The notes beneath the pieces were generated by a model. The model did no database searches. It worked only from the letters and a program-made list of their open reading frames with translations, and was not told where the DNA came from. The position numbers and the translations under genes are program-made. From assembly GCA_913057195.1 (NCBI GenBank), contig CAJXNL010000001.1, positions 1 through 64,000 on the forward strand: a DNA stretch of 64,000 bases, read 5' to 3'. Shown piece by piece: positions 13,095 through 15,101 of the stretch. The first letter of the stretch is position 1. Each line of letters begins with the position of its first letter. This stretch comes from an uncultured Wenzhouxiangella sp. GTDB taxonomy: Bacteria > Pseudomonadota > Gammaproteobacteria > Xanthomonadales > Wenzhouxiangellaceae.

Positions 13095-14525
13095 ATGGAT
13101 ATTTCTTCTTTTCTTTGGCATGACTACGAAACGTTTGGGGCCAACGCCAGACTCGACCGACCGTGCCAATTTGCGGCCATTCGAACCGATTCACAGCTCA
13201 ACCCCATCGACGATCCCATTGTGTGGTTTTGCCAACCCAGCGCTGACACCCTGCCCCACCCAAAGGCCTGCTGGATTACGGGCATCACGCCACAGCACGC
13301 CATTGCCCATGGCATGCCGGAGCCCAAGTTTGCACACGCTGTCTTTGATGAGATGAGCCAGGCGGGCACCTGCACCGTGGGCTATAACAACCTTCGGTTT
13401 GATGACGAAGTCTCTCGCCATCTGTTCTGGCGCAACTTCATTGATCCGTACCAGCGCGAATATGCCAATGGCAACAGTCGATTTGATCTGATCAATGTGC
13501 TTCGTTTGACGCGCGCACTTCGTCCCGAAGGTCTGGCCTGGGCCGAATACGATGATGGTCAACCCAGTTTCAAGTTAGAAGACCTCGCCACCGCCAACGG
13601 CCTGGACGCCACCCAAGCACACGACGCCCTAGTCGACGTTGAAAACACGCTCGCGCTGGCGCAAAGGCTCAGGCAGGCACAGCCAAAACTCTGGGCCTGG
13701 GCGCTCGATCTTCGTCAAAAATCCACCGTGGATGCCTTGCTCAGTCAAGGCCAACCACTGGTCTATGCCAGCGCCTACTTTGCTCAACGCCCTGGCTCAG
13801 TCGCACTGATCTCACCGCTGGGTCGCCACCCCACCATCAAAAATCAGTGGTGGGTCTGGGACTTGAGCTTCCACCCTCAAGACATCCTAGAATCGAAAGG
13901 ACGCCGGCTCGGTGATGACGACTTGGCTGACATGCCTCTGCCCGTCAGCACAATCAAAATCAATGCCTGCCCGATGGTTGCGCCCCTGGGGGTCGTGGAT
14001 GCCGAAACGGAAAACCGCCTTGGCGTTGACATCGAGCAAATGCGACAGCATCACCAATGGTGGCTGGAGCATCCCGACCAGGCCCGCGATTTGCTTGCTC
14101 ATCTGGGAAGCCGCACGCCCTTATTCGATCCCGCACCTGACCCCGAAGTCGATCTCTATGGCGGTTTTGTTCCACGCCAAGACCAAGCGCTGACGCGACG
14201 CATTGCGGGCATGACAGCCGACGAGCTGGCGGCGCTGGACAGCCCTTTTTCAGACTCCAGGCTCAATACGCTGCTGTTTAGATATCGCGCTCGACATTGG
14301 CCGCACACATTGAGCGACGCCGAGCAGGCCGATTGGCATAGAGACTGCCGCGAACGTTTGGTCATCGGCCGTGAGGGCTTGGGCCCCACCCTCGAGGAAT
14401 ACCACCTTGAGCTCGAACAGTTGGCCCAAGCGCATCCAGACGCCGATGACTTGCTCACGGCTTTACGCGCGTGGCCCGACCAGCTGAAATGCCTGATTGA
14501 CGGCAACCACAATTCAAGCACTTAG
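13095..14525 (+). CDS. sbcB: Exodeoxyribonuclease I
   Basis: Encodes 476 residues, matching E. coli ExoI (475). It degrades single-stranded DNA 3' to 5' in recombination and mismatch repair. DEDDh motifs are visible: HDYETFG (Asp10, Glu12), NNLRFDDE near residue 100, and AHDALVDVENT near 176. The SH3-like and helical C-terminal regions that bind SSB are covered by length. It stands alone, ending at a 270-bp convergent gap that contains the DnaA-box palindrome. Confidence 0.96.
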   Translation: MDISSFLWHDYETFGANARLDRPCQFAAIRTDSQLNPIDDPIVWFCQPSADTLPHPKACWITGITPQHAIAHGMPEPKFAHAVFDEMSQAGTCTVGYNNLRFDDEVSRHLFWRNFIDPYQREYANGNSRFDLINVLRLTRALRPEGLAWAEYDDGQPSFKLEDLATANGLDATQAHDALVDVENTLALAQRLRQAQPKLWAWALDLRQKSTVDALLSQGQPLVYASAYFAQRPGSVALISPLGRHPTIKNQWWVWDLSFHPQDILESKGRRLGDDDLADMPLPVSTIKINACPMVAPLGVVDAETENRLGVDIEQMRQHHQWWLEHPDQARDLLAHLGSRTPLFDPAPDPEVDLYGGFVPRQDQALTRRIAGMTADELAALDSPFSDSRLNTLLFRYRARHWPHTLSDAEQADWHRDCRERLVIGREGLGPTLEEYHLELEQLAQAHPDADDLLTALRAWPDQLKCLIDGNHNSST

Positions 14526-14555
14526 CTGGCGTTTATGCAGTAGCACCTGCAATGT

Positions 14556-14756
14556 TTATACACAACTCACTGATTCATCATTTAACAATTTTGTGACGGT
14601 CAGCCAACGCCTCATCGACCGGCCTTTTGTTCTATAAGTCTCTGTAATTACGGCTCTTTTTTTATTGTATAAATTTTGCCCAAATCGCTCCGACGCCGAC
14701 ACGACGCCCACTGGCGATTCGTTGCCCACAGCGTTATCCACAAGTTGTGTGGATAA
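14556..14756. other. DnaA-box cluster in convergent intergenic region (candidate origin or DnaA-control site)
   Basis: Two exact E. coli-type DnaA boxes face each other: TTATCCACA at 14734-14742 and its reverse complement TGTGGATAA at 14748-14756, forming a 10-bp perfect inverted repeat around a 5-nt centre. A third 9-mer, TTATACACA at 14556-14564, fits the TTATNCACA consensus, and TTGCCCACA at 14722-14730 is a weaker match. Between them, 14630-14678 is AT-rich with a T7 run. The region lies between the 3' ends of sbcB and a hypothetical gene, where no promoter for either is needed. I see no GATC in it. Function is inference. Confidence 0.6.
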
Positions 14757-14795
14757 CATCGCCAGGCCACAGGCCACCCAATCAAACCGCCCGTT

Positions 14796-15101
14796 TCACG
14801 CCTCCATAAGTGGCAGCTGAAGGCCCTCTGGCCCCGCCAAATGTGACCTTTGGGGAGCACGTTTCGGTCGCTGAGACAGCGCCCGACGCAGCACCGCATC
14901 GGACCGCGGCGACACCCACTCGACCACACTCCCGTCGTCAAATTGCATCATCAGCACCTCGGGCGGTTGGCCATTGCGACCAGGCTTGGCAATCACAGCA
15001 CTGATGCGCTTGCCAACAATTTGCTCGCGAAACTCGCTGGGGGTGGGCGCGGCCGCGGGGCGCCGGTCGGCTCGGATCGGTGTCACATTTGAGTTTTTCA
15101 T
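14796..15101 (-). CDS. Hypothetical protein, basic N-terminus
   Basis: I do not recognise this 101-residue protein. It starts MKNSNVTPIRADRRPA, followed by a region (about 25-75) with beta-like alternation (GKRISAVIAK, VLMMQFDDGSVVEWV) and an arginine-rich tail. I choose the ATG at 15101 because GGAGAG lies nine bases before it; a longer opening to 15203 has no such site. It has no signal peptide and no membrane segment. Its 3' end borders the DnaA-box region, but that does not itself assign a function. Confidence 0.6.
   Translation of the reverse strand: MKNSNVTPIRADRRPAAAPTPSEFREQIVGKRISAVIAKPGRNGQPPEVLMMQFDDGSVVEWVSPRSDAVLRRALSQRPKRAPQRSHLAGPEGLQLPLMEA

Follow-up and report, generated by a model that had tools for sequence, protein, structure and literature searches.

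The gap between sbcB and a convergent orphan gene of 101 aa is predicted to hold a DnaA-reactivating sequence (DARS) of the DARS2 type, a reading to which we assign a probability of about 85%. The window, by which we mean the whole 64,000-nucleotide stretch of DNA that was analysed, carries there a 201-bp element built from a core of three DnaA boxes, a Fis site, an IHF-like site and a distal fourth DnaA box. The arrangement of these boxes and its conservation are far beyond chance, given an inverted pair at 5 bp, a third box at 3 bp and fixed positions of the Fis site, the IHF site and the fourth box. The features are as follows.

13095..14525, plus strand: sbcB (exonuclease I), left neighbour, ending at the gap; identified by Pfam PF08411 and PF00929 and by synteny in relatives
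14556..14756, plus strand: whole putative DARS-type element, 201 bp, in the order box IV, IHF-like site, Fis site, boxes III, II and I; distances between features constant in relatives
14556..14564, plus strand: DnaA box IV, TTATACACA; a TTATnCACA of like direction stands between -168 and -180, counted from box II, in 31 of 32 sbcB-type loci
14635..14647, plus strand: IHF-like site TAAGTCTCTGTAA, register -99; degenerate in the window, with 3 mismatches to TAAnnnnTTGATW
14667..14681, unstranded: Fis site GTATAAATTTTGCCC, register -67; exact GnnYAnnnnnTRnnC
14722..14730, plus strand: DnaA box III, TTGCCCACA, two mismatches; 3 bp from box II
14734..14742, plus strand: DnaA box II, TTATCCACA, exact copy
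14748..14756, minus strand: DnaA box I, a further exact TTATCCACA, separated from box II by 5 bp
14796..15101, minus strand: orphan gene of 101 aa, right neighbour, ending at the gap; constant neighbour in relatives

The preliminary description of this DNA had placed all boxes and the AT-rich stretch (14630-14678) correctly, and both flanking genes do end at the gap as it said, sbcB at 14525 and the 101-aa gene at 14796. The AT-rich stretch and the far box that it listed proved to be parts of one element, the former belonging to the Fis/IHF module and the latter being box IV. Within the core, box I is inverted relative to box II, while box III points the same way as box II. The Fis/IHF module has an AT content of 72%, compared with 52% for the whole gap. 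Box number alone is not striking, since TTATNCACA occurs 3 times in the window against 1.1 expected and 10 of 100 shuffles equal that count. A genome-wide count of DnaA boxes, suggested earlier as a check, returned 14 exact TTATCCACA sites, and apart from this pair none of them shows the core layout. Outer inverted arms, CTGGCGAT and ATCGCCAG at 14711-14718 and 14758-14765, lengthen the palindrome in this genome only. We also observed TGAC words about 11 bp apart at about 14584-14607 of the window and at the equivalent position in relatives (registers -150 to -127), so that in many sbcB-type loci these repeats sit between box IV and the IHF site.

Conservation of the gap in relatives, likewise suggested as a check, was assessed with the search pattern TTATCCACA-N(2-10)-TGTGGATAA and with the reversed pattern as a control. 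The pair was found in 52 of 61 relatives, with a gap of exactly 5 bp at all sites listed, and the reversed control had no site in the same 61 genomes. Among 232 genomes drawn from the gammaproteobacteria, 98 have the pair at a gap of 2-10 bp (5 bp in all matches listed), whereas the 31 spacings from 6 to 36 bp yielded matches in 14 of the 232, several of which arise when the same elements are read with a perfect box III as the partner of box I. A phylum-wide draw contained the pair in 27 of 199 genomes, mostly but not only of the same class. A third DnaA-like box stands exactly 3 bp to one side of the pair, in the direction of its neighbour, in 73 of 74 related loci and at 3 bp in 29 of 30 wider loci; it matches at no fewer than six of nine positions in 70 of the 74 related loci, where shuffles lead one to expect 2.8. 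Because the loci counted belong to related species, they do not represent independent events; the argument is carried by the one-base precision of the spacing across families and unlike gene neighbours. In the wider class, box III is itself a perfect TTATCCACA in some genomes (G067, G119, G131 and G264), and G264 and G233 each have two pairs separated by a few hundred bases.

Further conserved positions emerged on the box III side when loci were aligned on the pair, with the start of box II as 0, and compared with the Fis consensus GnnYAnnnnnTRnnC (PMC4245941) and the IHF consensus TAAnnnnTTGATW. The Fis consensus is exact at -67 in 32 of 34 sbcB-type loci, the window included; the best Fis register in shuffled flanks averages 3.5 mismatches. 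For IHF, the best register in the sbcB-type loci is -99, with 12 of 34 loci within one mismatch and the window itself at 3 mismatches. In the argS, priA and wider sets, the Fis site lies at -78 and the IHF site at -110, an outward shift of 11 bp that corresponds to roughly one turn of the helix; box IV of the argS set is displaced likewise. Beyond the sbcB-type loci, the fourth box occurs in all 19 argS-type loci (-187 to -192) and in 24 of 29 wider loci (-200 to -165), while the priA set mostly goes without it (present in 1 of 12). No consensus box was found on the flank opposite box III in 92 loci.

The chromosomal address of the element varies. In relatives, the pair sits in the sbcB/orphan-gene gap or, often as a second copy, at priA or argS. 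The sbcB/orphan-gene gap or sbcB-recR address is used in most genomes of the same genus, in some other genera and in one other family of the order (in Wenzhouxiangella sp. XN79A the element is at the same place, its pair with one mismatch), and nearly all remaining sites are at priA or argS. That the element recurs at such unlike addresses indicates that the DNA itself is conserved, not its neighbours. Many genomes of the same genus hold two copies, the argS copy lying 92-97 kb from dnaA in two complete genomes. The window's site is intergenic, in a convergent gap, and in three complete relatives its homologue is separated from dnaA by 0.30-0.45 of the genome. In the window's genome, argS is 38 kb from dnaA, and the gap between argS and the carbonic anhydrase gene has shrunk and retains no core-like match. 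The argS-side element is thus gone and the sbcB copy is the only one left with an exact core. In relatives, the second copy, located between argS and the gamma-carbonic anhydrase gene (e.g. L106 near 5001), adjoins GTTACAATA, a promoter-like word of argS, and this word is kept in the window's genome although the element there has been lost.

The position of that second copy bears on whether the element could be a DnaA-controlled transcription site for a neighbouring gene. In relatives, the argS-side copy is indeed upstream of argS, and boxes III and II form a double box of the kind, with members 2-3 bp apart, that E. coli DnaA prefers, also upstream of its targets (PMC11317965). We nevertheless regard such control as very improbable, because different genes adjoin the same element and because both neighbours in the window end at the gap, where no promoter-like site was found. 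Our results agree with the earlier view that the gap has a function at the level of DNA rather than a promoter role for the flanking genes.

Convergent neighbours also invite a reading as a two-way transcription terminator or a structured RNA formed from the palindrome. The inverted boxes and outer arms, located between convergent genes, do form a good RNA fold (z -2.35), but no intrinsic terminator, in the sense of a GC-rich stem followed by a T-run, was found at the palindrome, and the sole terminator-like site is elsewhere (14536-14551) and at chance level. There was no Rfam match, and the outer arms of the palindrome are not conserved in relatives. An RNA-level role would moreover leave unexplained the conservation of box III, the Fis site and box IV, as well as the copies outside convergent gaps, and we consider it highly unlikely.

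Beyond the sbcB/orphan-gene gap of relatives lie recR, ybaB and dnaX. The 101-aa gene, which had no match in Pfam or NCBIfam, stands in relatives between sbcB and a gene for a secreted HHH (ComEA-like) protein, always adjoining the element. SbcB of the window is nearest to that of a sediment metagenome bin (identical to one relative compared) and then to Wenzhouxiangella, and the host genome is probably that of a reduced member of the Wenzhouxiangellaceae. It encodes DnaA, HU, IHF alpha and IHF beta, together with two proteins whose matches score under curated cut-offs, an Hda-like protein and a Fis homologue of 92 aa. The complete relative G019 has about ten additional short frames with a DnaA-domain ATPase; many are 247 aa long and score identically, and they are probably copies of an insertion-sequence helper ATPase.

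Among the functions suggested earlier, DnaA reactivation and a replication origin fared differently. Perfect DnaA boxes adjoining AT-rich DNA would suit oriC, but the usual oriC neighbourhood, rpmH-dnaA-dnaN-recF, is on contig C10, with DnaA boxes and AT-rich DNA in its dnaA-dnaN gap. An oriC would normally coincide with the GC-skew minimum and usually adjoin dnaA. GC skew in the window is negative on both sides of the site, with no change of sign. In the complete relative G027, whose skew was sampled in 20 stretches, the skew turns near dnaA (0.17 Mb) and between about 1.77 and 1.93 Mb, and the homologous site, at 1.748 Mb, is close to the terminus; in G019 and G026, that site is 0.42 and 0.30 of the genome away from dnaA. 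We therefore rejected oriC at this site, to which we attach almost no credence. DnaA reactivation, conversely, is strongly supported as a predicted function, since the element agrees with the E. coli DARS core and with the DARS2 IHF register.

If the E. coli system is a guide, ADP-DnaA would bind boxes I-III, and the DnaA molecules on boxes I and II would meet head to head. IHF would bend the DNA, with help from Fis, and the complex would then loosen its ADP. The freed DnaA could take up ATP and become able to start the next round at oriC, located elsewhere (dnaA-dnaN on contig C10). Going beyond E. coli, we propose that the IHF bend could return box IV to the vicinity of the core, because the IHF site is about midway between the two. 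The site would work as DNA, needing no product of its own, and titration of DnaA may be a side effect. We further hypothesize, tentatively and as a possibility somewhat short of an even chance, that a four-box DARS of about 200 bp (core, Fis, IHF and a distal same-direction DnaA box, folded back by IHF) is the widespread gammaproteobacterial form. Many genomes would hold two such sites, the first close to the origin (argS/priA) and the second distant from it (sbcB-recR), tying the recharging of DnaA to fork progress, and the E. coli sites DARS1 and DARS2 would be derivatives that have moved.

A literature search for DARS in Xanthomonas, Pseudomonas or Vibrio yielded nothing pertinent. DARS sites have been investigated in E. 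coli, and the papers covered by the search describe their conservation only for E. coli-proximal species, with the address unchanged (PMC4245941, PMC8682772). The strict signature, which combines TTATCCACA-N5-TGTGGATAA with a third box 3 bp away, picks out such elements throughout the class. It opens the questions of when recharging of DnaA first evolved, of the number and positions of the sites that a genome needs, and of whether one site suffices for a reduced genome. Natural variants, such as those with the one-turn spacing difference, could show how IHF and Fis drive the release of ADP.

In an alternative reading, a site like E. coli datA or a plain titration site would bind DnaA and lower its free amount, or promote ATP hydrolysis with IHF, without reactivation. 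The element has an IHF-like site between box IV and the core, much as datA, compared here by its description, has an IHF site between DnaA boxes (PMC5742627), and strong binding would titrate DnaA in any case. Titration alone, however, would not require a spacing fixed to one base, and the head-to-head pair at 5 bp with a third box at 3 bp is the described hallmark of DARS. Whereas datA promotes ATP hydrolysis, a head-to-head core of boxes I and II is not described for it. We thus consider a datA-like or titrating role unlikely and favour the DARS2-type sequence.

DARS1 and DARS2 of E. coli share a three-box core with equal spacing, in which box I is opposite to boxes II and III (PMC5742627; also PMC8682772), and DARS are prominently marked by the head-to-head contact between boxes I and II (PMC5742627). 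Read from sequence, the DARS1 core is TAATACACA-TGG-TTATCCACA-GGAAT-AGTGGATAA and the DARS2 core is TTCTTCACA-ACT-CTATCCACA-GAAAA-GGTGAATAA, both with 3- and 5-bp gaps identical to those in the window. The element therefore has the three-box core that defines DARS, with box I opposed to II and III at the DARS1/DARS2 spacing, and like DARS it is intergenic and away from oriC. With DARS1, in the bioD-uvrB gap, it shares the core directions and gaps but not the address; no Fis or IHF consensus was found near E. coli DARS1.

The likeness to DARS2, in the rppH-mutH gap, goes further, although the two differ in chromosomal address, in the same-direction fourth DnaA box that the window element has at about -178, and in boxes I and II, which are consensus in the element and degenerate in E. 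coli. A Fis site, which DARS2 needs, is present in the element, exact and at a fixed register on the box III side as in E. coli, but its order relative to IHF is different: at -67 it lies between core and IHF, while the exact Fis consensus of E. coli is beyond IHF, at -137. The first IHF site of E. coli DARS2 is at -99 and the second 3 bp further, in agreement with the two sites 3 bp apart described in PMC4245941. DARS2 needs an IHF site; the register of -99 is conserved in the family and equals that of the first site in E. coli DARS2, but the match in the window is weak (3 mismatches). Both elements are intergenic, with a three-box core in the same directions and 5- and 3-bp gaps, and the window's degenerate IHF-like site stands at the DARS2 register.
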